22,942 bases of DNA from Methylocystaceae bacterium (GTDB lineage Bacteria; Pseudomonadota; Alphaproteobacteria; Rhizobiales; Beijerinckiaceae): the NCBI GenBank assembly GCA_003152255.1, contig PLZT01000629.1, positions 1-22,942 on the forward strand, given 5' to 3'. Each line of letters begins with the position of its first letter. The stretch's first letter is position 1. The notes below the pieces were generated by a model. That model was not told the origin of the DNA, did not search any database, and saw nothing but the letters and a program-made list of their open reading frames with translations. A program made the position numbers and the translations under genes. Shown here in pieces: positions 6,091 to 22,404 of this stretch.

Positions 6091-7167
6091 CTAATCGCAA
6101 ATCGTTTTCAGAGCCGCCCATTCCTCGTCGCCGAGCAGCGCGGGCCCAGTCGCGCGTTTGTCCCGCGCGGCGAGATAGTCGAGTCGCTCCTGACTCAAGG
6201 GATGGTCGTGCAAAATGGCGGTCGCGCCATTGGCTTCAGGGCCAGTGACGCGGAGCAGCAGTTCTCCCATTGGCTTGGCCGGGCGCCCTAGCTTCGCCAG
6301 CGTCGCGGCGGCGAAAGCGTCGGCGGCCGCCTCCGACTCGCGCGAATGGGCGGCGAACAGCAGCGTCTTGCTGGCGTAGATGAGCGCGCCGCCCCCCGTC
6401 ACATACAGGCCGATCAGATAGGCGCCACCGCCGTCGGCGATCATGCGGCGCAGATGGTCGCGATGCTGCAAATGTCCCAATTCATGCGCGAGCACGCCGA
6501 TTATCTCGTCCTGATTCTCGGCTTTTGCGAGTAGGCCCGAAAACAGATAGACCTTGCCGCCCGGCAGCGCGAAGGCGTTGGGCGTTTTCGACGCCAGGAC
6601 GACGATTGTCGCGGGCAAGCGCAAATCCGACGCGCTCTGAAGCTGCTCGGATAATTTCGCCAAGGCCGCGGCGCCCGCTGGCGCGGCGCATTGTTTGGTC
6701 CCGAAAGCAGCGCGCGCCTGATTGTTGGCGGCCTCGCCGAGCCTGCGCTCCATCGAGATTGGCACGCGCGCCGCGATGCGGTCGGCGGCGTAGGGGATGC
6801 CGACCCAGATCGCTCCGACCATCGCCGCGACGCTCGCGATCGACCAGCCGATCGCCGACGACTTCGCGGCGTCCCGCGCGCCTTCTCCGGCGAGCAAACG
6901 ACAGCGAGCGGCGATTTGCGCCTGCAAGGCCGGATCGCGCGCTTCGAGACGCGCCAGCTCCGGAGCGGCCAAGGCATGGAGAATCCAAACGCCTTCGCCG
7001 GCGCTCGCGCGGCGCACGTCCGCATAAGGCCACGCGGTCAGAAAAACGCCGCTTTCGGCGATCTCCAGCGCTGGCCCGAAGCGGAGCGTGACCAGCCGGC
7101 CTCTCTTGACGCGGCCGTCGAAATAGACCGCTTCCCATGCGCCTGCGTCCGTCGCGGGCTCGGTCAT
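6091..7167 (-). CDS. M48-family membrane-associated zinc metallopeptidase
   Basis: This is a 358-residue gluzincin of peptidase family M48 (HtpX/Ste24/BepA relatives), which degrade or process misfolded membrane or envelope proteins. The zinc motif HELGH is at 228-232, and the downstream SRxxE motif (S275-E279) followed by AD gives the third ligand, E279. The PNAFALPGGKVYLFSGLL block at about 196-213 is typical of the family. A hydrophobic helix at about 103-126 anchors the protein. The first ~100 residues form a small domain often seen before this type of M48 peptidase; I cannot name it with certainty. The ATG at 7167 is preceded by AGGGA at a spacing of six bases. It has no obvious operon partners. 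Confidence 0.9.
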   Translation of the reverse strand: MTEPATDAGAWEAVYFDGRVKRGRLVTLRFGPALEIAESGVFLTAWPYADVRRASAGEGVWILHALAAPELARLEARDPALQAQIAARCRLLAGEGARDAAKSSAIGWSIASVAAMVGAIWVGIPYAADRIAARVPISMERRLGEAANNQARAAFGTKQCAAPAGAAALAKLSEQLQSASDLRLPATIVVLASKTPNAFALPGGKVYLFSGLLAKAENQDEIIGVLAHELGHLQHRDHLRRMIADGGGAYLIGLYVTGGGALIYASKTLLFAAHSRESEAAADAFAAATLAKLGRPAKPMGELLLRVTGPEANGATAILHDHPLSQERLDYLAARDKRATGPALLGDEEWAALKTICD

Positions 7168-8055: not shown

Positions 8056-8077
8056 ATAATTGTCGGGTTGTGCATCG

Positions 8078-8187: not shown

Positions 8188-9843
8188 ATGGAGCGACTGC
8201 CTCTTATTCCGAAACGACGGACCTTTGGCGAAATATCGCTTTCTGCGATCCTTGTGTTGCTCGCGATCGCCACCGCCTTCATCGCGACGCAGGCCTACAC
8301 GCCGGCTTACGCCTTTCACATGGTGTTGTTTTCGCTCTGCTCCGTCCTCGCCGTGGTCGCGATCAACATGCGCTTCGACGCGCGGCCGATCGCGTCGACG
8401 CCGCTCGTCATCGACGGCAAACCCAATTACAACTACGGCCCGATCAAATTCGCGTCGCTGGCCGCGCTGTTCTGGGGAACGGCGGGATTCGTCGTCGGGC
8501 TGTATCTGGCGCTCGAACTCTCATTTCCGATACTCAACTTCGATCTTCCCTGGATCAATTTCGGGCGATTACGGCCGCTGCACACCTCGGCGGTGATCTT
8601 CGCCTTCGGCGGCAACGTTCTGTTGGCCACTTCCTTCTATGTCGTGCAGCGCACCTCGCGCGCGCGCATCGCGGGGGAGCTCGCGCCGTGGTTCGTGGTT
8701 TTGGGCTACAACTTCTTCATTCTGATCGCCGGCACCGGCTATCTGCTCGGCATTACGCGCAGCCATGAATATGCCGAGCCGGAATGGTATGCGACCCTGT
8801 GGCTGGTGGTTGTCTGGGTCACTTATCTGCTCATCTATCTGGTGACGCTGGCCCGGCGCACGGAGCCGCATATTTACGTCGCCAACTGGTTCTATCTCGC
8901 CTTTATCGTGACGATCGCCGTGCTGGTGCTCGGCAACAACACGGAAATCCCGATTTCGGTGTTCTCGCCGCAATCGGTGATCGTCTGGTCCGGCGTGCAG
9001 GACGCGATGATTCAGTGGTGGTACGGGCATAACGCCGTGGGCTTCTTCCTGACGGCGGGCTTTCTGGGCATCGTTTACTATTTCGTGCCCAAGCGCGCCG
9101 AGCGGCCGATCTATTCCTATCGCCTGTCGATCGTGCACTTTTGGGCGCTGATCTTCCTCTATATCTGGGCCGGCCCGCATCATCTGCACTACACCGCCTT
9201 GCCCGATTGGGCGCAGACGCTCGGCATGGTGTTCTCGGTGATGTTGTGGATGCCGTCCTGGGGCGGCATGATCAACGGCCTCATGACTCTTTCCGGCGCC
9301 TGGGACAAGCTGCGCACCGATCCCGTACTGCGCATGCTGGTCGTGTCGGTCGCCTTCTACGGCATGTCGACCTTCGAAGGCCCGCTAATGTCGGTGAAGT
9401 CGGTCAATTCGCTGAGCCATTACACCGATTGGGGCATCGGCCATGTGCATTCGGGCAGTCTCGGCTGGGTCGGCTTCGTCTCCTTCGGCGCGCTCTATTG
9501 CCTGATCCCGTGGATCTGGAACAAGAAGCTTTACTCGCTGAAGCTGGTTAACTGGCACTTCTGGATCTCGACCATCGGCATCGTCTTCTACATCTCGGCG
9601 ATGTGGGTCGCGGGCATCATGCAGGGCCTTATGTGGCGCGCATACACCCCGCAGGGCTTCCTCGAATATTCATTCGTCGAGACGACGGAAGCGCTGCATC
9701 CGGAATATCTCATCCGCGCGGCTGGCGGCGGCCTCTTCGTGGCCGGCATGCTGATCATGCTGGTGAATATCTACAAAACCATCGCCGCGCCCAGGGCCGA
9801 AGAAGTCTTCGAGGCCGTCGCCTCGCCCATCCCGGCAGAGTGA
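8188..9843 (+). CDS. ccoN: Cytochrome cbb3 oxidase catalytic subunit I (CcoN/FixN)
   Basis: CcoN is the membrane-embedded catalytic subunit of the high-affinity cbb3-type terminal oxidase, holding heme b, heme b3 and CuB where O2 is reduced. All ligands are visible in the 551-residue product: H132 (low-spin heme), H281, H331 and H332 (CuB), H419 (heme b3) and H421 (low-spin heme). Y325 is 44 residues after H281, where the C-family cross-linked Tyr belongs. About 70 extra N-terminal residues, with an additional hydrophobic segment, distinguish it from the short Pseudomonas form and are usual in rhizobial FixN. I chose ATG 8188 because GAGGA lies about nine bases upstream; the frame extends upstream without conserved sequence. 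First gene of the ccoNOQP unit, under the FNR box at 8042. Confidence 0.98.
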
Positions 9844-9854
9844 GGACGAGTGAA

Positions 9855-10607
9855 ATGTCGAATTCGACCCAACATGCTCCCGCCTCGGGCCTGGGAAAGC
9901 TGCTCGAGACCAACTCGATCCTCCTGCTGCTCGGCATTCTGCTGATGATTTCAGTCGGCGGCCTCGTCGAGATCGTGCCCTTGTTCTATCTCAAGAGCAC
10001 GATCGAGCAGGTCGAGGGCGTGCGGCCCTATACGCCGCTCGAACTCGTCGGCTTCAACATCTATGTGCGCGAGGGCTGCTACACTTGCCATTCGCAGATG
10101 ATCCGGCCGCTACGCGACGAGGTGGAGCGCTACGGCCATTACTCGCTCGCGGCCGAGAGCATGTATGACCATCCGCATCAATGGGGCTCGAAGCGCAACG
10201 GCCCAGACCTCGCGCGCGTCGGCGGCAAATATTCGAACGACTGGCAGCGCGATCATTTGCGCGATCCGCGCGCGGTGGTGCCGTCCTCGATCATGCCGGG
10301 CTACGCCTTCCTGTCGAAGGCGCCCGTCAACGGCGCCCATCTCGCCGAGCAGATGCGCCTGTTGCGCGTGGTCGGCGTGCCTTACAGCGACGAGCAGATC
10401 GACAATGCGACGGCCGATCTTGCCGCGCAGGCGGCCTCCGACGACGCGGGCGGCACGGATTTGCAGAAGCGCTATCCCAACGCCGTGCTCGGCGACGTAG
10501 CCGGCAAGTCTTCCATCACCGAGGAAGACGCGCTGATCGCCTATCTACAGCATCTCGGCGTCTCCGTGGACTTCAAGCTGTACGACGACAAGGCCAACAT
10601 CAGGTGA
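9855..10607 (+). CDS. ccoO: Cytochrome cbb3 oxidase monoheme subunit II (CcoO/FixO)
   Basis: CcoO is the membrane-anchored monoheme cytochrome c that passes electrons from CcoP to CcoN. The 250-residue product has an N-terminal anchor helix (about 22-45), one heme c site CYTCH (C75, C78, H79) and a probable axial methionine M147 in SSIMPGY. The REGCYTCHSQMIRPLRDE context is diagnostic of CcoO. I chose ATG 9855 because it directly follows the ccoN stop by 11 bases with GAGGACGAG upstream; the longer open frame back to 9603 overlaps ccoN and is not conserved. A hairpin separates it from ccoQ. Confidence 0.97.
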   Translation: MSNSTQHAPASGLGKLLETNSILLLLGILLMISVGGLVEIVPLFYLKSTIEQVEGVRPYTPLELVGFNIYVREGCYTCHSQMIRPLRDEVERYGHYSLAAESMYDHPHQWGSKRNGPDLARVGGKYSNDWQRDHLRDPRAVVPSSIMPGYAFLSKAPVNGAHLAEQMRLLRVVGVPYSDEQIDNATADLAAQAASDDAGGTDLQKRYPNAVLGDVAGKSSITEEDALIAYLQHLGVSVDFKLYDDKANIR

Positions 10608-10822: not shown

Positions 10823-11713
10823 ATGTCCGTGGACAATCTGCACGACAGCAAAATTCGCATCGACGAGCATAGCGGCACGCCCACAACCGGGCATGAATGG
10901 GACGGTATAGAGGAACTCAATACGCCGCTGCCGCGCTGGTGGGTGTGGACCTTCTACGCGACCGTGATTTGGTCGCTCGCCTATTGCGTTGTTTATCCGG
11001 CCTGGCCGCTGCTGCATGGCGCGACCGAGGGCGTCCTCGGATGGCACTCGCGCGCGGCGGTGGTCCAGGATATCGCCGATCTGCAAGCGACCCGCGCGCC
11101 GATTCTCGCCAAGATCAAGGACGCGCCGCTGGAGTCCATCGAGCAAAATCCGGAACTGCTCGCCGCGGCGCGCACTGTCGGCCGGGTGGCCTTCCTCAAC
11201 AATTGCGCCGCTTGCCATGGCGCCGGCGCGCAGGGGGCGAAGGGATATCCCAATCTCAACACCGACGCCTGGATCTGGGGCGGCAAGCTCGCCGACATCA
11301 AGTCCACGATCGAGCACGGCGTGCGTTGGGACGCCGACAAGCAAACCCGTGTTTCGTCCATGCCGGCCTTTGGGCGCGACGGCATTCTGACGCCAGGGCA
11401 GGTCTCCGACGTGGCGGATTATGTGCGCACCATGGCCGATCTGCCCGACGCGATCGCGCCCGAGCCGAAGGGCGAAAAGCTCTTCAATGAGAATTGCGCG
11501 GCTTGCCACGGGGTTAACGGCGAGGGCAATCGTGAGGTCGGCGCGCCCAATCTGTTCGACGCGGTCTGGCTCTATGGCTCCGATAAGGCGGTCGTTATGA
11601 CTCGCGTCAATCAGGGCGGCGGCGGCGTGATGCCGGCCTGGAAAGGCCGCCTCGACGACACCACGATCAAGGCGCTTACTGTTTACGTCCACTCGCTCGG
11701 CGGCGGTCAGTAA
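10823..11713 (+). CDS. ccoP: Cytochrome cbb3 oxidase diheme subunit III (CcoP/FixP)
   Basis: CcoP is the diheme cytochrome c subunit that accepts electrons from soluble or membrane cytochromes and hands them to CcoO. The 296-residue product has an N-terminal soluble segment with the DGIEELNTPLPRWW signature, a membrane helix at about 40-62, and two CAACH heme c motifs (C128/C131/H132 and C225/C228/H229). M180 and M270 are likely axial ligands. Length and domain order are those of standard FixP. ATG 10823 follows ccoQ by two bases. A 15-bp hairpin follows the stop codon and probably marks the end of the most abundant transcript segment. Confidence 0.98.
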   Translation: MSVDNLHDSKIRIDEHSGTPTTGHEWDGIEELNTPLPRWWVWTFYATVIWSLAYCVVYPAWPLLHGATEGVLGWHSRAAVVQDIADLQATRAPILAKIKDAPLESIEQNPELLAAARTVGRVAFLNNCAACHGAGAQGAKGYPNLNTDAWIWGGKLADIKSTIEHGVRWDADKQTRVSSMPAFGRDGILTPGQVSDVADYVRTMADLPDAIAPEPKGEKLFNENCAACHGVNGEGNREVGAPNLFDAVWLYGSDKAVVMTRVNQGGGGVMPAWKGRLDDTTIKALTVYVHSLGGGQ

Positions 11714-11780: not shown

Positions 11781-13235
11781 TTGTCCAGTTCAGAGACCGC
11801 GTCCCACGGCAATGCCGACGGCGCTCTCTACGCGCCCGCGCGCAAGATCTACCCCAAGAAGGTCGATGGCGAGTTTCGCCGGATCAAATGGGGCATTCAA
11901 CTGTTCACGCTGGCGATTTACTATCTGCTGCCCTTCGTGCGTTGGCATCGCGGCGCGGGCGAGCCGTCGCAGGCGGTGCTGGTGGATCTGGAACACCGCC
12001 GCTTCTATTTCTTCTTCATCGAGATTTGGCCGCAGGAGGTCTATTACGCCACCGGCCTGTTGATCGTCGCCGCGCTGACGCTGTTCCTTATGAACGCCGT
12101 CGCCGGCCGCATCTGGTGCGGCTACATGTGTCCGCAGACGGTCTGGACCGATTTGTTCCAGATGACCGAACGCTGGATCGAGGGCGACGCGCGCGAACGC
12201 ATGCGCAAGGACGCCGGCCGCTGGACCTTGCAACGAATTCGCGAGAAACTCGCCAAGCACGCGCTGTGGCTGCTGATCGCCTGGTGGACCGGCGGCGCAT
12301 GGGTGCTTTATTTCGCCGACGCGCCGACGCTCGTCCACGAGCTCGCCACTTTCGCGCCGGGCTGCGGCCAGGCCTATATGTGGATCGGCATTTTCACCTT
12401 CACGACCTATGTGCTCGCGGGGGTCATGCGTGAGCAGACGTGCCTTTATATGTGTCCCTGGCCGCGCATCCAGGCGGCGCTGACCGACGAATACGCGCTC
12501 AACGTCACCTACCGCTACGATCGCGGCGAACCGCGCGAATCGCTGAAACACGCGACGCTGCTGCGGGCGCAGGGGAAGCCGGCGGGGGATTGCGTCGACT
12601 GCGGCCAATGCATCGCCGTTTGTCCGACCGGCGTCGATATTCGCCACGGCGCCTCGCTCGGCTGCATCCAATGCGGATTATGCATCGACGCATGCGACAG
12701 CGTCATGGAGAAGATCGGCCGGCCGACGCGGCTGATCGCCTACGACACCGAGATGAACATCAAGCGCCGCCAATGCGGCGAACCGTCGATCTATAAGCCG
12801 ATCCGCGCGCGGACCATCATTTACGCCGCGCTGATCGTCGCCATCGGTGGGTTCATGATGTTCACCCTGGCGACGCGCGGCGATATGCGGCTCAACGTGC
12901 TGCACGACCGCAACCCTCTGACGGTGACGTTGAAGGATGGAAGCGTGCGCAACGCCTATACGATCCGCATCTCGAACATGAAGGCGGCGACTCGCCGGTT
13001 CACGCTGGAGATCGCGGGCGCGGCGGGCGCGCAGATTGATCTCGTGGGCGAGACGGCCGATACACAGGGCCACCTCATCGTCGAGGTCGGTGTCGACCAG
13101 ACGCGCGAGGCGCGCGTGCTGGTGACAATGCGTGGCGCGCATGGGGCGGATACGCCGCTTCCGCTGACCTTCACCGCGCGCGAAATCGGCGGCGGCGCCA
13201 GCATATCCGCGAAGGACGTATTCCTTTGGCGTTAG
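11781..13235 (+). CDS. ccoG: Cytochrome oxidase assembly ferredoxin-like protein CcoG/FixG
   Basis: CcoG is a polytopic membrane iron-sulfur protein needed for cbb3 biogenesis and reported to act as a cupric reductase. The 484-residue product begins with LYAPARKIYPKKVDGEF, a CcoG hallmark, and has the membrane region with GRIWCGYMCPQTVWTD (C113, C117) and CLYMCPWPRIQ (C221, C225). Two 4Fe-4S clusters follow (C271, C274, C277, C281 and C295, C298, C301, C305). A last helix at about 343-365 precedes a C-terminal Ig-like domain. Translation appears to start at TTG, supported by AAGGAAGGGG six bases upstream. It opens the ccoGHIS assembly half of the locus, 67 bases after ccoP. Confidence 0.96.
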   Translation: MSSSETASHGNADGALYAPARKIYPKKVDGEFRRIKWGIQLFTLAIYYLLPFVRWHRGAGEPSQAVLVDLEHRRFYFFFIEIWPQEVYYATGLLIVAALTLFLMNAVAGRIWCGYMCPQTVWTDLFQMTERWIEGDARERMRKDAGRWTLQRIREKLAKHALWLLIAWWTGGAWVLYFADAPTLVHELATFAPGCGQAYMWIGIFTFTTYVLAGVMREQTCLYMCPWPRIQAALTDEYALNVTYRYDRGEPRESLKHATLLRAQGKPAGDCVDCGQCIAVCPTGVDIRHGASLGCIQCGLCIDACDSVMEKIGRPTRLIAYDTEMNIKRRQCGEPSIYKPIRARTIIYAALIVAIGGFMMFTLATRGDMRLNVLHDRNPLTVTLKDGSVRNAYTIRISNMKAATRRFTLEIAGAAGAQIDLVGETADTQGHLIVEVGVDQTREARVLVTMRGAHGADTPLPLTFTAREIGGGASISAKDVFLWR

Positions 13236-13275: not shown

Positions 13276-13797
13276 ATGTCGTCTTACGATCTCGTTCCAG
13301 GCAAGACTGGCGCCGACAAGGGAAGGCCGCTCACCGGCTGGATGGTGCTGGCCATGCTGCTGGCGTTTTTCGGCGTGATCGGCTCCGTCAACGCGGTCAT
13401 GGTCTATTCCGCGCTGTCCACATTCAGCGGCGAGGTCGAGGCGCATCCTTATGAACGTGGAATAGCCTACAACCGCGAGATCGCCAGCGCGCGCGAACAG
13501 GCGGCCCGTGGCTGGAAGGTCGACGCGTCGCTGGAGCGTCTTTCCTCGGGCGAGACGCGGATCGCGGTCGTGGCGCGCGACGCCAGCGGCGCCGATATTT
13601 CCGGCGTGGAACTCGCCGCCAATCTGGCCTCTCCCACCGATAAAAAGCAGGATGTGCCGGCGAAACTGCTGGAGATCGCGCCGGGGCGGTTCGAGGCCCG
13701 CGTCGTCGTGGCGCCCGGCGCGCGCGATCTCGTGCTGACGGCTTCACAGGGCGGCCGCGAGGTCTTCCGCTCCCGCAACCGCCTGCAAATCGATTGA
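13276..13797 (+). CDS. ccoH: Cytochrome cbb3 assembly protein CcoH/FixH
   Basis: CcoH is a small single-pass membrane protein that associates with the oxidase and is required for its assembly or stability. The 173-residue product has a membrane helix at about 22-45 preceded by the conserved LTGWMVLAML stretch, the NAVMVYSAL motif in the second half of the helix, and a beta-rich periplasmic domain (about 60-170), with YNREIASAREQAARGWK typical of FixH. ATG 13276 has AGGAGA about eight bases upstream. It lies 40 bases after ccoG and seven before ccoI, consistent with one operon. Confidence 0.94.
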   Translation: MSSYDLVPGKTGADKGRPLTGWMVLAMLLAFFGVIGSVNAVMVYSALSTFSGEVEAHPYERGIAYNREIASAREQAARGWKVDASLERLSSGETRIAVVARDASGADISGVELAANLASPTDKKQDVPAKLLEIAPGRFEARVVVAPGARDLVLTASQGGREVFRSRNRLQID

Positions 13798-13804
13798 GCT
13801 CGCC

Positions 13805-16012
13805 ATGAGCGCGCCCGCTCTCGATTTCGAGGCGCTTGTCACGCGCGGCAAGGACGGTTCGTTTCGCTTGGAGGCGGCGATCGAGGGGATGACCTGCGCC
13901 GCCTGCATCGGCGATATCGAATCCGCCCTGCGCAATCTTCCCGGCCTCATCGCCGCGCGCGTTAACTACACCAATCGGCGGCTGTCGCTGGAGTGGCGCG
14001 AAAGCGCGTTCGAACTGGCGGGCGTTTTCGAGCGTCTGCGCCGCATGGGTTATCGCCTGCACCCGTTCGAACTCGCCAGCGGCGAGCGCGTGGAAGAGGA
14101 GGCCTCGAAACGACTGTTGCGCTGTCTCGCCATCGCCGCCTTCGCGGCGATGAACATCATGCTGCTGTCCGCGGCCGTGTGGATCGGCGAGGACACGGAC
14201 ATCGATCCGGCGACGCGCGATATGTTCCACGGCCTCTCGGCGTTGATCGCATTGCCGGCGGCGGCTTTCGCGGGCCAGCCCTTCTTCGAGAGCGCCTTCA
14301 ACGCGCTGCGCGCGCGCCGGCTCAACATGGACGTTCCGATCTCGCTCGGCGTCGTGCTCGCCTTGGCCATGTCGGTCTATGAGACGCTTACTCATGCGCA
14401 GCGCGCTTATTTCGACAGCGCGATCATGCTGCTCGCCTTTCTCCTGCTCGGGCGCTATCTCGACGCCGCGATGCGCCGCAAGACGCGGGGCGTCGCCGCC
14501 AATCTCGCCGCGTTGCGCGCGCCGCTCGCCTGCCGCCTCGGCGCGGACGGCCGCGAGACGATGGTCGCGGCGGCGGCGCTGCGGCGTGGCGATCGCGTGC
14601 TCGCGCGTCCGGGCGAAGTTCTGCCAGCCGATGGCGTCGTGATCGCCGGCGCCTCGACGCTCGACGAGGGCATCGTCACCGGCGAAACCGCGCGCCGTCC
14701 CGTCGCCCGCGGCGAGCGGGTTTACGCCGGCAGCCTGAACCATGACGGCGCGCTGACGCTGGAAGTCGAGGCGGCCGGGGCCGGCACGCTGCTTGGCGAG
14801 ATCGAGCGCCTGCTGGAGAAGGCGACGAGCGCGCGCTCGCGCTATGTGCGGCTCGCCGATCGCGTCTCGCGATTTTACGCGCCCGTGGTGCATCTGGCCG
14901 CGCTGGCGACCGCGCTGTTCTGGTTGTGGCGCGGCGCGTCGATCCACGACGCGCTGGTGACGGCCATCTCCGTGCTGATCGTCACCTGTCCTTGCGCGCT
15001 CGCGCTCGCCGTGCCGGCGGTGCAGGTGGTCGCCAGCGGCGCCTTGTTCCGCGGGGGCGTATTGCTCAACGCCGCCGACGCGCTCGAACGCTTCGCGCAA
15101 ATCGACACGGTGGTGTTCGACAAAACGGGCACGCTGACCTCGCCTCATCCTTGCGTCGTCAACGCGCGAGACTTCGACTCGGAGATTGTCGAACACGCGG
15201 CGGGTCTCGCGCGCGCCAGCAGCCATCCGCTGGCCCAGGCCGTGGCGCGCGCGCGGCCCGACGCGCCTTTGCTCGCCGATGCGACGGAAGAGCGCGGGCA
15301 GGGGGTGCGCGCGCTGATCGATGGCGCCGAGGCGCGGCTGGGCTCGCCCGGTTTTTGTGGGCTTGAGGAGGAAGTCGCGGATCTTGGCGCGCTGGCGCCG
15401 GACGTCTCGCTGGTCGCCTTCCGCCACGGCCCGCGTCACGCGCTGTTCCAGTTGCGCCAGACCTTGCGGAGCGACGCGGCCCAAACCCTCGCGGCGCTGG
15501 CGCGGCGCGGGCTCGCCATAGAAATCCTCTCGGGCGACCGCGCCGAGGCGGTGGAGTCCGTCGCCAAGGCGCTCGATGTCGCCAATTGGCGGGGTGGGCT
15601 GAAGCCGGCCGAAAAGGTTGCGCGGATCGAGGCGTTGCGGGCGGCGGGCCGCAAGGTTCTGATGGTCGGCGACGGGCTGAACGACGCGCCGGCCCTCGCC
15701 AGCGCTCACGCCTCCATGTCGCCGATCGACGCGACGCAGGTCACGCAGGCGGCGGCCGACGCGGTGTTTTTGGGCGATCGGCTCGCGCCCGTGCTGGCGA
15801 CGGTCGAGACAAGCGTGGAGGCGCAGTGGGTCATGCGCCAAAACCTCGCGCTTTCGGTGATCTACAATCTGTTCGCCACGCCGCTCGCCATGCTCGGGCT
15901 GTTGACGCCGCTGATCGCCGCCGCGGCCATGTCGGGCTCGTCGCTCCTGGTGACGTTGAACGCCCTGCGCACGGGCAAGCAGGTGCGCGGACTCGGCGAG
16001 GGCGCGCCATGA
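13805..16012 (+). CDS. ccoI: Copper-translocating P1B-type ATPase CcoI/FixI
   Basis: CcoI is a copper-exporting P-type ATPase that moves Cu(I) across the inner membrane for insertion into the CuB site of CcoN. The 735-residue product has an N-terminal heavy-metal-associated domain with GMTCAAC (C31, C34), the transmembrane metal motif CPC at 395-397, the phosphorylation site DKTGT (D439), the SHPLA block around 473 typical of copper ATPases, and GDGLNDAP at 622-629. The actuator motif reads TGET (usual TGES), a mild variation. The start lies seven bases after ccoH with only a weak binding site, suggesting coupling. The stop overlaps the ccoS start (ATGA). A long open frame opposite it is a shadow of its GC-rich codons. 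Confidence 0.97.
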   Translation: MSAPALDFEALVTRGKDGSFRLEAAIEGMTCAACIGDIESALRNLPGLIAARVNYTNRRLSLEWRESAFELAGVFERLRRMGYRLHPFELASGERVEEEASKRLLRCLAIAAFAAMNIMLLSAAVWIGEDTDIDPATRDMFHGLSALIALPAAAFAGQPFFESAFNALRARRLNMDVPISLGVVLALAMSVYETLTHAQRAYFDSAIMLLAFLLLGRYLDAAMRRKTRGVAANLAALRAPLACRLGADGRETMVAAAALRRGDRVLARPGEVLPADGVVIAGASTLDEGIVTGETARRPVARGERVYAGSLNHDGALTLEVEAAGAGTLLGEIERLLEKATSARSRYVRLADRVSRFYAPVVHLAALATALFWLWRGASIHDALVTAISVLIVTCPCALALAVPAVQVVASGALFRGGVLLNAADALERFAQIDTVVFDKTGTLTSPHPCVVNARDFDSEIVEHAAGLARASSHPLAQAVARARPDAPLLADATEERGQGVRALIDGAEARLGSPGFCGLEEEVADLGALAPDVSLVAFRHGPRHALFQLRQTLRSDAAQTLAALARRGLAIEILSGDRAEAVESVAKALDVANWRGGLKPAEKVARIEALRAAGRKVLMVGDGLNDAPALASAHASMSPIDATQVTQAAADAVFLGDRLAPVLATVETSVEAQWVMRQNLALSVIYNLFATPLAMLGLLTPLIAAAAMSGSSLLVTLNALRTGKQVRGLGEGAP

Positions 16013-16167
16013 CCGTATTGCTGTTTCTCGTGCCGCTGGCGCTCGCCCTGGGCTTTGTTGGCCTGATGAGCTTTCTCTGGTCCCTGAAATCGGGCCAATA
16101 CGACGATCTCGACGGCGCGGCGCAACGCGTGCTGTCGGACGACGACATCGAGGAGGAGCGGCGGTGA
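16009..16167 (+). CDS. ccoS: Cytochrome cbb3 maturation protein CcoS/FixS
   Basis: CcoS is a very small membrane protein required for incorporation of heme and copper cofactors into CcoN. The 52-residue product has one helix (about 3-24) followed by SLKSGQYDDLDGAA, the signature of the family, and an acidic tail. Its ATG overlaps the ccoI stop by the ATGA arrangement, and its own stop overlaps the GTG start of the following transporter gene, so all three are probably translationally coupled. Confidence 0.95.
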   Translation: MTVLLFLVPLALALGFVGLMSFLWSLKSGQYDDLDGAAQRVLSDDDIEEERR

Positions 16168-17264
16168 GCGTCGACGATCTGAGAATGCGTCCGGGCGAAC
16201 TGGCCTGTGTCTGCGGCTCGTCCGAAGGCGGTGACGACGCGCTCGACGCGCATGATCTCGGCCGCCTCGCCGCCGGCTTTGGTCTCTCGGCGCTGGCGCA
16301 GGCTCTGGTGCTCTCGACCTTGCCCGAGGCAAGCCGTCTTCTCGCGCCGACGCTCGATCGGCTTGGCTGGCCCTATGCGCTGCTGCTGGTCGGCGCGGCG
16401 CTCGCGACCTTTCCGGCCGCGTTTTTGATCGACGCCTTCGGGCGGCGCTCCGCCTTCGCGCTGGGCGCAAGTCTTGGCGTCGCGGGCGGATTGCTGACCG
16501 CCTTCGCGGCGTCGCGCGGAAATTTTTCAGCGCTGTGCCTTGGCGCCTTCTGGCTTGGGCTCGCTCAGGGTTTCGCCCTGTTTTATCGCCACATAGCGGC
16601 GCGCGGCTCGGCGCTGGCGACGCGCGCGGGTCTCGTGGTTCTGGCCGGCGGGGCGTTGGCGGCGGCCGGAGCGCCGGCGTTGATCCGCTTCGGCGCGCTG
16701 TTCGGCGAGGGCGTCGGACCACTGCTGATCATCGCCGCGGCGCTGCACGCGCTCGCCTTGTGGGCAGCGACCCGCCTGCCGCACGCGATAGCGCCGATAA
16801 GATTGGAGGCGCGTCCCGCCGCCGCCTCGTCGTGGCGTTTTGTCGCCGCGACGCTCGGCGGCGCGCTAGGCTGGTTCCTGATGGCGGCCGGGATGTTGCA
16901 TGGACCGTTGCAACTCTCGCTATGCCAGGCGTCGCGCGGCTTTATCGGCGCTGCGATGGCGTGGCATCTGCTCGCCATGTATGGGCCGGCGGCGCTCGCC
17001 GCGCGCTGGCCGAAGCTGGCGCCGCCCGCCCTGTCCATGCTCTCCGGGCTGGCGGCGATGCTTGTGGCGCTGGGCGCCGTGCGCGCCGGGGCGAGCGTTT
17101 TCAGCGTGACGGCGGCGATGATGGTCATCGGCGCGGGATGGTCGCTGGTCAATGTCGGCGCCATGCGCCTGCTGCATGACAAGGGCCGCCCGCCGCGGTT
17201 GGCGCTGGCGCTGCACGATCTTTGTCTGCTGAGCGCGGCGGCGGCGGGGGCGTTGGCGTTTTAG
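16164..17264 (+). CDS. MFS transporter, CcoA-like copper importer candidate
   Basis: This is a 366-residue transporter of the major facilitator superfamily with about eleven hydrophobic segments. Helix 7 carries MxxxM (M240, M244) and helix 8 carries HxxxM (H268, M272), separated by exactly the spacing I recall for the Rhodobacter capsulatus copper importer CcoA (M233, M237, H261, M265). C254 sits where I recall a functional Cys (C247), while the position matching M269 is Ala (A276). CcoA imports copper for cbb3 oxidase, so the context fits. The GTG start at 16164 overlaps the ccoS stop. The protein ends right after a segment that looks like helix 11, so the last helix expected of a 12-helix MFS protein appears missing. 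The substrate is inferred; a general MFS drug or metabolite transporter is the alternative. Confidence 0.75.
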   Translation: MSVDDLRMRPGELACVCGSSEGGDDALDAHDLGRLAAGFGLSALAQALVLSTLPEASRLLAPTLDRLGWPYALLLVGAALATFPAAFLIDAFGRRSAFALGASLGVAGGLLTAFAASRGNFSALCLGAFWLGLAQGFALFYRHIAARGSALATRAGLVVLAGGALAAAGAPALIRFGALFGEGVGPLLIIAAALHALALWAATRLPHAIAPIRLEARPAAASSWRFVAATLGGALGWFLMAAGMLHGPLQLSLCQASRGFIGAAMAWHLLAMYGPAALAARWPKLAPPALSMLSGLAAMLVALGAVRAGASVFSVTAAMMVIGAGWSLVNVGAMRLLHDKGRPPRLALALHDLCLLSAAAAGALAF

Positions 17265-17333: not shown

Positions 17334-18191
17334 TTATTCGATGCCGAGGAACTTCTTGGCCGGAACAAGATTGTCCCCGAATTCTTTGAGAAAACGAACA
17401 ACTTGGGCGCGTTCCGTCACCGACAGGCCGACATCCGCTGCGCGGGAAAAGGCGATGTTGGAGGCGTCCAATTTGGCGAATGTTCCCGACGCCAGCGCGG
17501 GAAATTCAATTTCGACGCCGCCGCCCGACAGGAGCCGCGCGCGGGTCTTTCCACCTTTCTTTTCCCCGTGCGCATCGACAAATCCATACCAGAACGGGAA
17601 ATCGGCGGGCGGTTTGCCGTGCTTGAGATTGACGACCGCTAACTGATCGGCGTGTTCTTCCGTCAGATCGAGCCATCGCCCGACTGATTGAGCCGAGCCG
17701 ACATCGGGCGAGATTACGTGCACGATCGTCAGGCGATAACCCTCCGCCTCGATGGCGGCCATGAAGCCATCAAGAGACGCGCCTTCATCGATAATCCGCG
17801 TCAGATCGCCGAGAAGACCGCCGGCGAGGTCGTGAACGCAAAGAGCCTCGCGAGACGCCATGCAATCCAACACCATGTTGCGTTCGCCCTCGACGCGACC
17901 CTGATAATAGCCAACGCCCTCGACCGCGCATTGTTCGTCGATGAGATCGCCGCTGGCGTCGCGCAAGCCGAGGACGCGGAGCGTCGCGCCGATGCCTCCA
18001 TCGGCGTCATATGCCGCGATCCGCGATCCGTTCGACCGGAGGAAATCGATCAGCGTACGCGTGAATACGGACTTGCCAACGCCGCCCTTTTCAGAGGCGA
18101 CGAGGACGAGACGACGAGGAAGCGGAGGGATCGCGCGGGTGCGAAATCTCGGAGCGTCGGACATTCTTCCAACTACCGCTGGTTTTATCAT
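17334..18191 (-). CDS. ParA/MinD-like P-loop ATPase, StbB/TraL-like
   Basis: This is a 285-residue ATPase of the ParA/MinD/ArsA superfamily. The deviant Walker A motif EKGGVGKS is at 34-41, with both the signature Lys (K35) and the P-loop Lys (K40). AYDADGG at about 60-66 is the Walker A' region and VHDLAGG (D121) the likely Walker B. Its overall shape resembles StbB/TraL proteins of conjugative plasmids, which help position or transfer plasmid DNA, rather than chromosomal ParA. This assignment is from memory of family style. ATG 18191 has AGAGG six bases upstream; an in-frame ATG at 18164 is less well placed. It lies 62 bases downstream of a helix-turn-helix gene on the same strand, the order expected of an stbA-stbB pair. 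Confidence 0.7.
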   Translation of the reverse strand: MIKPAVVGRMSDAPRFRTRAIPPLPRRLVLVASEKGGVGKSVFTRTLIDFLRSNGSRIAAYDADGGIGATLRVLGLRDASGDLIDEQCAVEGVGYYQGRVEGERNMVLDCMASREALCVHDLAGGLLGDLTRIIDEGASLDGFMAAIEAEGYRLTIVHVISPDVGSAQSVGRWLDLTEEHADQLAVVNLKHGKPPADFPFWYGFVDAHGEKKGGKTRARLLSGGGVEIEFPALASGTFAKLDASNIAFSRAADVGLSVTERAQVVRFLKEFGDNLVPAKKFLGIE

Positions 18192-18944: not shown

Positions 18945-21239
18945 TCACGGCCCCTTCGCCACCACCGCCGCATGCGCCAGCTCCATTTGCGGCTCCCGCG
19001 TAAGAAAGTCGCCGAACTTGGCGCGGTAGACGACGAAGTTCTCCATCACGCGCTGGACATAGTTCCGCGTCTCCTGGATCGGGATGCGTTCGACCCAATC
19101 GACGGGATCGACATCGGCGTGGCGCGGGTCGCCATAGGCGTCGAGCCATTCCTTCACGCGGTGTCCGCCGGCGTTATAGGCGGCGAAGGTCAGGAGGTAG
19201 GAGCCCTTGAGCTCGCCGAGCAAGAGTCCAAGATGCGCGGCGCCGAGCTGCGCATTATAGGCGGGTTCGTCCAGCATTCTGCGGAGATCGAAGCCGACGC
19301 CGACGTGGACGGCGGTTTGACGCGCGGTCGATTCGATCATCTGCATCAGGCCCATCGCATGAGCGCCGGAGATCGCGCGCGGATCGAAGGCGCTTTCCTG
19401 CCGCGCGATGGCGTAGACGATCGAACGCGACGCCGAACCGGGAAGGCTCGTGAAGCGCGGCACGCCGTAGGCCGGGAAGGCGAGATCGTCGAGCGCGACG
19501 CCGCGATGCGAGGCGAGCTTGCCGAGGGCGAGAGAAATCCTGGCGTCGTGGGTTTGCGCGACCACCTCGCCCAGCGCGGCGACTTGCGATTCATCGGTCA
19601 GATGCTTCACGGCGTCGGCGGCGAGTGGGCCGGCCGAGTCCTTTTCTCCCGACGCGAGCAGCAACTCCACGACCCGCACGGAATCGTCGCGCGCGTCGCC
19701 TTGAGCGGGCGTCGGCGCGGGGCGCAAGGGCGAAGCGGCGGAACCGAGCTTCGCTAGCGCCAACTGGCCGTAAAACGTGGTAGAATGCGTCGCCGCTTCG
19801 GCGTAATAGTCGTGGGCGTTGGCGTTTTCCTCAGGCGTATGTCGCGTCTCGGCCGTTCGCGCCAGCCAATAGGCCGCGCGCGATTTTTGGATCGGTGTTT
19901 CCGCGATTTGCGCCAGAAGTTCGAAATGTCGCTCGGCGCCGGGGAGGTCGTTGAGGAAGCGCAGGGCTATCCAGCCGGCGTGGAATTCCGCGTCGACCCT
20001 CGCATTGACGCCATGCGCGGAATGCTGCGCGCAGATCGCATAGGCGCCTTGCGCGTCGCCGAGGTCGAGCAGTTTTCTGGCGACAAGGCGGCGCTCGACC
20101 CACCAGGCGTCGCCGTCGATCACGCGCTCGGGCTCGCGCGGGGCGTTGCGCAGCAGCGCGGCGGCTTCGGCGATTTTCTGCTTCTTGCGCAGGAGGTGCA
20201 CGCGCGCGTAGATCAGGCCGGGATCGTTCTGGAGCGACGCCGGGACCGTGGCGAAGAGCTTTTCGCTGCCATAATCGCTATTGGCGGCGGCGCGCACCCG
20301 GGCCAAAGCCACGACGTCCTTGCCGGCGAGTTCCGCGGCGCGCATGGCCGCCGCGTGTTTCTCGGCGTAGAGCAGGCGGTCGGCGCGGTATTTGTGATCG
20401 GCGACGGTCAGGAAATCGGAGAACTCCTTGCGCAGCACGGCTTCGATTGTTTCGTTGAAGTCTTCCTCGCGCCATAGCTGGCGGGCCAGCGCGCCGGCGG
20501 CGTCGAACTCGCCGTCGCGGGCGAGAACCCGCGCCAGCGCGATTTTTCCGGCGGGCGTCGATGGCTTTTCCTCGGCGAAGAATGATTTAACGGTCGAGTC
20601 GGGGTTGTGGTCGCCAAACAGCGCCTCCTCGGCGTGGCGGCGCAGCCAATCCCGGGCCGGCCAATTCGGCTGGTCGAACATGAACCGCGACAAGCGCGAG
20701 AACCCAGCCTCGCGCGGATGCAGGCGCAGTCCCGCCCATCGCGCCGCGAGGGCCGGAAGCGGCGCCCGCAACTCGGCGGCGGCGAAGTCGCCGGCGGCGA
20801 AGTCGGCCGCTTTATAGGCCGCCAGCGCCCGCGCGAAGGCGGGGGCGTCGTCGCCAAGGAGAAGCGCCGGATCGGGCAGGGAGGACGCGTTCGCGGCGTC
20901 GTCCTGATCGCGTCGCGGTTTGCTAGCTTCATAGGAAAGCAGCGCCGAGTCCGGCAGCGCGAAAAGCGCATTTTCGCGCATCAACGGACCATTCGGGAGC
21001 GCGCGGCGCGCATTCTCGCGCATCGTCTCCCCCGGTGGGGTGGGCGCGTATCGCCATTCGCCATTTCGGATCGTCGCCGCGATCGCATCGTCAAGGCTAG
21101 TGTCGACTTTTGCCGAGGGTTTGGTCAGCCGCTCGCGCAGGGTCGGCGCATAAAACGCCACTCCGCCTCCGACCAGTAGCCAAAGCCCGAGCCGCGCGGC
21201 GCCGCGCGTCGTGATGTGGAAGGGCCGGAGACTTTTCAT
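18945..21239 (-). CDS. Soluble lytic murein transglycosylase (Slt-type)
   Basis: This periplasmic enzyme cleaves the MurNAc-GlcNAc bond of peptidoglycan with formation of 1,6-anhydro-muramic acid. The 764-residue product has an N-terminal signal or anchor helix (about 15-30), a long alpha-helical superhelical region, and a C-terminal SLT domain. The catalytic Glu is about E615 in ARQESAFDPRAISGAHAMG, with GLMQMIESTA and LTFAAYNAGG downstream, all diagnostic. I chose ATG 21239 because it precedes the export segment and AGGGAG lies about nine bases upstream; the frame stays open to 21767 but that part has no conserved sequence and overlaps dapA. An imperfect 14-residue tandem repeat lies in the N-terminal region. 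The gene is divergent from dapA. Confidence 0.93.
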   Translation of the reverse strand: MKSLRPFHITTRGAARLGLWLLVGGGVAFYAPTLRERLTKPSAKVDTSLDDAIAATIRNGEWRYAPTPPGETMRENARRALPNGPLMRENALFALPDSALLSYEASKPRRDQDDAANASSLPDPALLLGDDAPAFARALAAYKAADFAAGDFAAAELRAPLPALAARWAGLRLHPREAGFSRLSRFMFDQPNWPARDWLRRHAEEALFGDHNPDSTVKSFFAEEKPSTPAGKIALARVLARDGEFDAAGALARQLWREEDFNETIEAVLRKEFSDFLTVADHKYRADRLLYAEKHAAAMRAAELAGKDVVALARVRAAANSDYGSEKLFATVPASLQNDPGLIYARVHLLRKKQKIAEAAALLRNAPREPERVIDGDAWWVERRLVARKLLDLGDAQGAYAICAQHSAHGVNARVDAEFHAGWIALRFLNDLPGAERHFELLAQIAETPIQKSRAAYWLARTAETRHTPEENANAHDYYAEAATHSTTFYGQLALAKLGSAASPLRPAPTPAQGDARDDSVRVVELLLASGEKDSAGPLAADAVKHLTDESQVAALGEVVAQTHDARISLALGKLASHRGVALDDLAFPAYGVPRFTSLPGSASRSIVYAIARQESAFDPRAISGAHAMGLMQMIESTARQTAVHVGVGFDLRRMLDEPAYNAQLGAAHLGLLLGELKGSYLLTFAAYNAGGHRVKEWLDAYGDPRHADVDPVDWVERIPIQETRNYVQRVMENFVVYRAKFGDFLTREPQMELAHAAVVAKGP
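20940..21023 (-). repeat. 42-bp imperfect tandem duplication inside the transglycosylase gene
   Basis: Two adjacent 42-base units (21023-20982 and 20981-20940) encode MRENARRALPNGPL and MRENALFALPDSAL. The repeat keeps the reading frame and lies in the poorly conserved region between the anchor helix and the helical superstructure. Confidence 0.8.
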
Positions 21240-21283
21240 TAGCCTGCTCTCCCTAGCCAAAAGGCGACCTTGCCTCCATATCG

Positions 21284-21298
21284 TTAACGAATCGTCAA
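21284..21298 (-). promoter_or_regulatory. Near-match CtrA box upstream of the transglycosylase gene
   Basis: On the minus strand the sequence is TTGA-CGATTCG-TTAA followed by C, one mismatch from TTAA-N7-TTAAC. It ends 45 bases before the transglycosylase ATG. Single mismatched sites occur by chance, so this is weak. Confidence 0.25.
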
Positions 21299-21510
21299 CC
21301 ATGACGACTCCCCACGCGCGGCCTCGGCCGATTCCAAAGGATTCGCGAGCGACGCATAGTAAACCCTGACCGACGCGCCGCGTTCCGCCCCCGCCAATAT
21401 GAAACCGCCCGAAGGCCTTTCCTGAATGGCTGTCAGCGGCTATGACAGCGGGAACGGATGTTGACGGGCGAATACGGCGTCTGTGAGGCGCTAAGGAAAG
21501 TCTTGATCTT

Positions 21511-22404
21511 ATGAGCAAAATGGCAATTTTCCATGGATCGGTCACCGCGTTGGTGACGCCCTTCGAGGGCGGCATGGTCGATTTCGAGCGGTTGCGGGCC
21601 CTGGTCGATTGGCAAATCGAGAGCGGCACGCATGGGCTGGTTCCGGTCGGCACGACCGGCGAAAGCCCCACGCTTTCCCATGAAGAACATGGCGCCGTCA
21701 TCACCGCGACCATCAAGGCCGCGCGCGGGCGCATCCCGGTCATCGCGGGGGCGGGGTCGAACAACACGCGCGAAGCGGTCGCCCTAGCCGGCCACGCCGA
21801 ACGCGCCGGGGCAGACGGCCTGCTGGTCGTAACGCCCTATTACAACAAGCCGAATCAGGAAGGGCTTTATCTCCACTTCAAGGCGATCAATGATTCGGTG
21901 TCGATTCCGATCATCATTTACAATATTCCGCCGCGCTCGGTGATCGACATGAGCGTCGAAACCATGAAGCGTTTATCGGAATTGAAGAATATCGTCGGGG
22001 TCAAGGACGCGACCGGCAATATCGCGCGCATCTCGCTACAGCGCGACGCGATGGGGCCGGACTTCATCCAGTTTTCCGGCGACGACATCACCGCGCTGGC
22101 CTGCATGGCGGCGGGAGCGTGCGGTTGTATTTCGGTCGTCGCGAATATCGCGCCGAGGCTTTGCGCCGATCTGCAAAACGCCGCGCTCGCCGGGGACTTC
22201 AAGACGGCCCTTGCGATACAGGACAAGCTCGTGCCGCTTCAGGTCGCCACCTTCCTGGAAGCGGGCGTCACCGGCGCGAAATATGGACTTTCGCTCCTTG
22301 GAAAAGTCGGCGAGGAGGTGCGGCTTCCGCTCGTTCCCTCGACGCAGGCGACCAAGGACCGCATCCGCGCCGCCATGGTCTTCGCCGGCCTGTTGGAGGC
22401 ATAA
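21511..22404 (+). CDS. dapA: 4-hydroxy-tetrahydrodipicolinate synthase
   Basis: DapA condenses pyruvate with aspartate semialdehyde, the first committed step of lysine and meso-diaminopimelate synthesis, supplying peptidoglycan precursors. The 297-residue product shows GTTGESPTL (T48, T49), the tyrosine of TPYYNKP (Y111), IIYNIPPRS (Y137, R142) and the Schiff-base lysine K165 in GVKDATGN. Length and motifs are standard for the bacterial enzyme rather than for related N-acetylneuraminate lyases. AAGGAAAG lies about ten bases before ATG 21511; a second in-frame ATG at 21520 would remove only three residues. smpB follows after nine bases, so they are probably cotranscribed, an arrangement common in Rhizobiales. 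Confidence 0.97.

Follow-up and report, generated by a model that had tools for sequence, protein, structure and literature searches.

The window, a stretch of 22,942 nucleotides from a Methylocystaceae bacterium, carries a complete cbb3 oxidase operon on its forward strand, in which ccoN, ccoO, a probable ccoQ, ccoP, ccoG, ccoH, ccoI and ccoS are followed by a gene for a transporter of the major facilitator superfamily (MFS), referred to as calT in the rest of the text (Table 1). The ccoN reading frame is listed from a TTG at position 8068, and its likely start is the ATG at 8188. A search against NCBIfam returned no match for the probable ccoQ. About 130 bases upstream of the likely ccoN start lies an FNR/FixK-like box. 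A scan for such boxes yielded 8 matches with at most 2 mismatches compared to a chance expectation of 4.8, and at least 8 matches were obtained in 15 of 100 shuffles; the box upstream of ccoN is the sole one of the 8 with a single mismatch. An Rfam scan of the whole window gave no match.

The open reading frame of calT codes for 366 aa and starts with GTG. As originally predicted, the last three genes of the operon overlap: the ATG of ccoS (16009) overlaps the stop codon of ccoI, and the GTG of calT (16164-16166), with the sequence AGGAGGAG upstream, overlaps the stop codon of ccoS (16165-16167) as GTGA. The first gene past calT, on the opposite strand (17334-18191), codes for a ParA/MinD-like P-loop ATPase of 285 aa. 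On the same strand as the latter, a 940-aa reading frame (18945-21767) contains a lytic transglycosylase domain towards its C-terminal end and overlaps, as listed, dapA on the forward strand (21511-22404); its actual start is therefore probably internal to the listed frame. A gene coding for an M48-type metallopeptidase (6091-7167, reverse strand) lies upstream of the cbb3 operon and diverges from it.

Table 1. Features of the cbb3 operon and of its last gene in the window.
Feature	Coordinates	Strand	Remarks
FNR/FixK-like box TTGATCATTGTCAA	8042..8055	+	1 mismatch to TTGAT-N4-ATCAA; putative role, from position
ccoN, cbb3 oxidase subunit I	8188..9843	+	TIGR00780, 689 bits
ccoO, cbb3 subunit II	9855..10607	+	TIGR00781, 324 bits; likely ATG start
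Probable ccoQ, 55 aa	10653..10820	+	Position only
ccoP, cbb3 subunit III	10823..11713	+	TIGR00782, 369 bits
ccoG, Cu reductase / assembly protein	11781..13235	+	TIGR02745, 515 bits
ccoH (FixH)	13276..13797	+	PF05751, 107 bits
ccoI, Cu P1B ATPase (FixI type)	13805..16012	+	TIGR01511 and HMA domain
Intact CxxC (C31-C34) in the N-terminal metal-binding domain of CcoI	13895..13906	+	
ccoS	16009..16167	+	TIGR00847, 82 bits
calT, cbb3-linked 11-helix type (cluster 11B)	16164..17264	+	
Cytosolic tail motif R9-x-G-x3-C15-x-C17 of CalT	16188..16214	+	
M240xxxM244, TM7, putative Cu site by homology	16881..16895	+	118/118 homologues (from the best 120 of 263 matches); helix 224-253
C254, TM7-TM8 loop, counterpart of R. 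capsulatus C247	16923..16925	+	118/118 homologues (from the best 120 of 263 matches); alignment
H268xxxM272, TM8, putative Cu site by homology	16965..16979	+	118/118 homologues (from the best 120 of 263 matches); helix 258-281

Family membership of the calT product

The calT product had been predicted to be a CcoA-like copper importer from residues spaced as in R. capsulatus CcoA, which belongs to the Copper Uptake Porter family of TCDB. M240, M244, C254, H268 and M272 were all found where the prediction placed them, at a constant offset of 7 from M233, M237, C247, H261 and M265 of R. capsulatus CcoA, numbers that match the accessible text of PMC8406296; the spacing of the TM7 and TM8 Met/His motifs and of the loop Cys is thus identical in the two proteins. 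Of the periplasmic C49, C247 and C367 of Rhodobacterales CcoA (cluster 1), the alignment covered C247, for which it gave C254 as the counterpart. The third Met named in the prediction, M269, found no support: it occurs 0 times in the accessible text of PMC8406296, and its counterpart is a Ser in a Rhodobacteraceae-type CcoA. R. capsulatus CcoA itself, sought by means of 16 published residues, was not found; the best candidate was a Rhodobacteraceae-type CcoA (L164) with 12 of the 16, which, unlike the window CalT, has no N-terminal CxC.

Upon 2000 composition shuffles of the protein, MxxxM alone appeared 468 times, HxxxM 411 times and the pair at the observed spacing 0 times. Each of M240, M244, C254, H268 and M272 is present in 118 of 118 aligned homologues, which are the 118 of 121 proteins with at least 335 aa (the 3 shorter ones were dropped), the homologue search having listed the best 120 of 263 matches. 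A chance match of the motifs was rejected, the residue conservation being the stronger evidence. The same spacing of the Met/His motifs was observed in 49 of 51 12-helix CcoA-like transporters (CalT), and is one residue longer in the remaining 2.

A profile built from 14 sequences of 12-helix CalT (A2) scored 110 bits (E = 1.4e-31) on the counterpart from the nearest genome, which is 96% identical to the calT product, compared to at most 66 bits for the matches that scored under this window-like protein and that we took as other MFS transporters. In the same search of 143 genomes, full-length CalT reached at least 255 bits, and a gene split in two pieces (G530) gave 242 and 169 bits. Comparison of profile against profile using hhalign returned a probability of 99.9% (E = 2.7e-36, 339 columns). 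By profile scores, CalT rather than other MFS proteins are therefore its nearer relatives. The profile searches of genomes scored the best first-look candidates, 6 per genome for the order and 13 per genome for both the 143-genome search and the 149-genome family sample, and weak members may be missed; the set A3 was assembled without L240, which holds X, and without L217, which is close to L216. In a 90-row tree of CalT, a branch with an SH-aLRT support of 100 separates the 30 window-like proteins from the rest; this tree was computed by a quick method from CalT rows alone, mostly every second one, with one long row among the 30. Judging from its sequence, the calT product is a true CcoA-like transporter, as originally predicted. 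A simple drug or sugar MFS transporter was rejected given the CalT profile score and the place in the tree. Near homologues that carry names come from Methylocystis and Methylocystaceae, and a PDB sequence search gave GLUT3 matches only, all weak (E of at least 0.34).

The AlphaFold model of the calT product (mean pLDDT 81.6, pTM 0.82) adopts the MFS fold and places M240 and M244 in helix 7 and H268 and M272 in helix 8. CalT are characterized by 12 TM helices, the number given for R. capsulatus CcoA in the accessible text of PMC8406296, compared to 11 in our model. In eight 12-helix CalT the chain continues for another 38-43 residues, which include a hydrophobic stretch; the calT product is thus a CalT without helix 12. 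The original prediction was silent on this absent helix and on the N-terminal CxC.

By analogy with CcoA, we infer that copper is imported through the Met/His site. A protein that binds copper but exports it, or that transports something else, for instance a metabolite or a drug, as many MFS proteins do, seems to us highly improbable: generic databases label the protein only as a sugar or MFS transporter, but its CalT profile score and its place in the tree are clear, the Cu-site residues are invariant among the homologues from the best 120 of 263 matches, the linkage to cbb3 genes is strict (see below), and, according to the accessible text of PMC6362234, Cu import in E. coli was observed for three CalT from other clusters. 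In that same text, the RfnT-like CalT of O. anthropi, R. palustris and A. tumefaciens, which share family and motifs with the window CalT, import Cu in E. coli; RfnT-like CalT did not restore cbb3 in R. capsulatus without ccoA, and the single one measured in R. capsulatus accumulated no Cu either.

Linkage of calT to ccoS

Within the genus, ccoS was found in 11 of 25 genomes; 10 of these 11 carry calT, adjoining ccoS in all ten, and none of the 14 genomes without ccoS, some of which are incomplete, carries it. Match scores across 149 genomes of the family form two groups: 47 matches exceed 270 bits, and 97 stay below 145 bits. Each of the 47 strong matches immediately follows ccoS on the same strand, which supports calT as a built-in member of the cco operon, and 0 of the 97 weaker matches lie within 20 kb of ccoS on their own contig. 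The 47 copies occur in 46 of the 97 ccoS-bearing genomes of this sample, one genome having a calT copy behind each of its two ccoS genes. Among 297 genomes of the order (6 candidates scored per genome), strong matches were detected in 6, and the three from outside the family are also located behind ccoS. The start of the gene is covered in 72 of 74 named loci (L229 and L255 are cut before the N-terminus), with ccoS just upstream in 72 of 72; named linked loci include Methylocystis, Methylosinus, Rhodoblastus, Methylocella, Bosea, Ancylobacter and Methylobrevis. These data establish both the membership of the protein in the CalT family and the linkage of its gene to ccoS. R. capsulatus CcoA serves cbb3, and the window CalT is linked to cbb3 by the position of its gene; unlike calT, R. 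capsulatus ccoA is presumably located outside the cco cluster. In a MAG of Rhizobium sp. Q54, the second Met of MxxxM is an Ile in one of the two linked CalT copies (L238:3738-4871, forward strand), and both Met are kept in the other (L231).

The suggestion that this gene order is under-described found no support. In the accessible text of Khalfaoui-Hassani 2018 (mBio, PMC5829832), CcoA-like proteins of Rhizobiales with both motifs and without helix 12 are reported, with genes right downstream of ccoNOQP and ccoGHIS, Methylocystaceae are named among the families in which CcoA and cbb3 co-occur or are both absent, and a missing-helix exception to the 12 TM is allowed for the Rhizobiales group. 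The accessible text of Zhang 2019 (Sci Rep, PMC6362234) likewise reports the gene order and names the truncated Rhizobiales CalT 'cluster 11B'. The window CalT shares with cluster 11B the gene order, MxxxM and HxxxM and the absent C-terminal helix, that is, a C-terminal truncation together with a gene adjoining ccoGHIS in Rhizobiales, and the two almost certainly represent the same group. No functional test of a cluster 11B protein was found in the accessible text of either paper.

A CxC tail on linked CalT and the N-terminal site of CcoI

The first 34 residues of CalT vary freely (mean entropy of 2.35 bits per column) except for R9, C15 and C17. R9 is found in 118 of 118 and C15 and C17 in 117 of 118 aligned homologues from the best 120 of 263 matches, the sole exception (P0010) having a different start. 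An artefact of start choice was rejected, as P0003 and P0004 have an ATG at the same place and R9, C15 and C17 are kept upstream of TM1. All 53 cbb3-linked CalT of one set (56 minus 3 duplicates) carry the motif R-x-[GS]-x3-C-x-C, as do 72 of 72 named linked loci readable at the N-terminus; 31 proteins are common to these two sets, which together hold 95 distinct ones. It also occurs in the 3 linked CalT from outside the family and in 8 linked loci of later CcoI searches, some of them repeats. At the tail position, CxC was found in 0 of 51 unlinked 12-helix CalT, and no tail was found in any of the 125 unlinked CalT rows (119 distinct), where the only CxC string ahead of TM1 (L118) lies upstream of the likely start and was not counted. 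Six unlinked 12-helix CalT (L012, L113, L120, L125 and L128 from one family, L014 from another) carry FCNGAC or FCHGAC at or near their start, suggesting that N-terminal Cys elements may have multiple origins in CalT. MFS N-termini are cytosolic, and the loop D90-x2-G93-R94-R95 fits this orientation; the tail is thus on the cytosolic side. In the AlphaFold model it is disordered (pLDDT 32-36).

CcoI takes up cytosolic copper via an N-terminal HMA domain containing CxxC. In R. capsulatus, mutation of either N-terminal site of CcoI lowers cbb3 activity by about 75%, and one of the sites is also described as regulatory (accessible text of PMC8475189). In the 149-genome sample, CxxC is present in 50 of 50 readable CcoI from 57 unlinked clusters; among the 47 linked clusters, 46 CcoI were readable, of which 29 contain CxxC and 17 lack it. 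Within these 104 ccoS regions, no CcoI reading frame was found in L284 (linked) or in L351, L353, L360 and L361 (unlinked), L259 and L279 (unlinked) are cut, and the N-domain of L344 was unreadable. In a wider set of distinct genes, which includes the window and is enlarged by 90 loci drawn from the order and from two further families (L436 without a CcoI reading frame; L395, L404, L421 and L422 dropped for too little downstream DNA, along with 2 identical rows), CxxC is kept in 126 of 126 readable unlinked CcoI and in 35 of 52 linked ones, and is thus lost in 17 of 52 linked clusters compared to 0 of 126 unlinked ones. We scored CxxC alone and dropped the requirement for MxCxxC, since the Met is absent in unlinked CcoI as well. 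The CcoI of the window retains its CxxC. One genome (G158) contains two cbb3 assembly clusters (L294 and L329), each with calT and each with a CcoI devoid of CxxC. L344, an unlinked cluster at a contig end, codes for a CcoI whose N-domain does not resemble HMA, through either a frameshift or a real change; it was set aside, and, if real, would be a counterexample to the restriction of CxxC loss to linked clusters.

In a CcoI tree of 180 rows computed without the HMA columns (178 distinct genes, as L363 is identical to L272 and L364 to L285), the 17 site-less rows fall in four clades, corresponding to 4 separate losses, and the strongly supported branches of a 97-row tree, likewise without HMA columns, force at least 3 changes. 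Linked lineages make up 28% of the branch length, so that the occurrence of 4 of 4 losses there has a p of about 0.007, or about 0.02 for three of three, by a crude branch-length test. These values, the 10 of 17 site-less rows that belong to one clade and the small number of losses, 4 in all, would fit neutral drift, in a few lineages, of a site that is needed only in part, the coincidence with linked CalT arising from shared ancestry. We consider this explanation unlikely, because 0 of 126 unlinked rows, from several families, lost CxxC, and because drift would erode the domain. The site-less N-domain instead keeps a conserved backbone and an HMA-like predicted fold: it is still recognized as HMA by a sequence profile (28 rows, 14 with CxxC), and the model of one such domain (mean pLDDT 75, pTM 0.58) matches CopZ and Cu-ATPase domains with a target-normalised TM score of up to 0.90. 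The remainder of the pump is preserved as well, CPC, DKTGT, TGE and HP being kept in 17 of 17 site-less CcoI.

A proposed relay from importer to CcoI

Given the loss of activity in the R. capsulatus site mutants, CcoI proteins that naturally lack CxxC would need another copper donor. We infer that the tail binds Cu(I) and transfers it to CcoI. In the proposed relay, the product of calT, the last gene of a ccoNOQP-GHIS-calT operon, would be an MFS importer of the CalT type without helix 12 that draws periplasmic copper in by way of the Met/His site in helices 7 and 8, as presumed from CcoA. At the cytosolic side, its R-x-G-x3-C-x-C tail would accept Cu(I) and pass it to CcoI, which would export it for CuB of CcoN, an export role known from R. 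capsulatus. Copper would probably be reduced by CcoG ahead of its capture by the tail, a reduction of the type described for R. capsulatus in the accessible text of PMC8475189. The importer would thereby carry its own docking or chaperone element, and with a tailed importer present the N-terminal CxxC of CcoI could become dispensable while the pump is retained.

We lean towards this explanation, in which an importer with its own Cu(I) acceptor tail hands copper to CcoI and spares the N-terminal site of the latter. A stricter version, in which the CxC tail loads CcoI directly in a chaperone-free, membrane-bound import-export pair and has repeatedly replaced the N-terminal site, is conceivable and we advance it tentatively. 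Since 35 of the 52 linked CcoI, including that of the window, have CxxC, the tail would not always be a replacement. Against replacement stand the fact that only 4 losses are seen and the presence of soluble HMA (CopZ-like) reading frames in some genomes with lost CxxC; in a survey of CopZ as a possible cause of the loss, covering 15 of the 16 lost-CxxC genomes and 13 others, short HMA reading frames were found in some lost-CxxC genomes, and for others none was listed. The disorder of the tail in the model makes its contact with CcoI a proposal.

The tail could alternatively sense or gate, C15 and C17 closing a cbb3-dedicated importer at copper sufficiency through Cu(I) or redox, with another cause for the loss in CcoI. 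The tail is short, disordered and variable except for R9, C15 and C17, and the regulatory role ascribed to one CcoI N-terminal site (PMC8475189, accessible text) points in the same direction, but such a function does not predict that the loss of CxxC is confined to linked clusters, and we find it rather doubtful.

A eukaryotic analogue of the proposed handover from tail to CcoI would be Ctr1, in which the C-terminal tail lies in the cytosol and binds both Cu(I) and the chaperone Ccs (accessible text of PMC6647829). Both would be importers passing Cu(I) by way of a metal-binding cytosolic tail; Ctr1 differs in its unrelated fold and in the use of the opposite terminus, and the two share no kinship. 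Relative to the accessible main texts of PMC5829832 and PMC6362234, the conserved CxC tail and the loss of the CcoI N-terminal CxxC are additions: no mention of either was found there, and the term CXC is absent from the main texts of these two papers and of PMC8406296. A literature term search retrieved no paper in which CcoA, N-terminal and CXC motif occur together. The tail and the repeated loss of the CcoI site in its presence are the observations worth following up.

The question addressed by these observations is how imported copper is routed to the cbb3 oxidase instead of to other proteins. Although they import copper in E. coli, related CalT do not support cbb3 in R. capsulatus, where the one measured accumulated no copper either (PMC6362234, accessible text). 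A tail seen here only on cbb3-linked importers, together with a lost receiver site, provides a concrete candidate for a routing element, which bears on methanotrophs, whose lives depend on copper. If the proposal is true, a tailed importer may explain how copper reaches the right enzyme.
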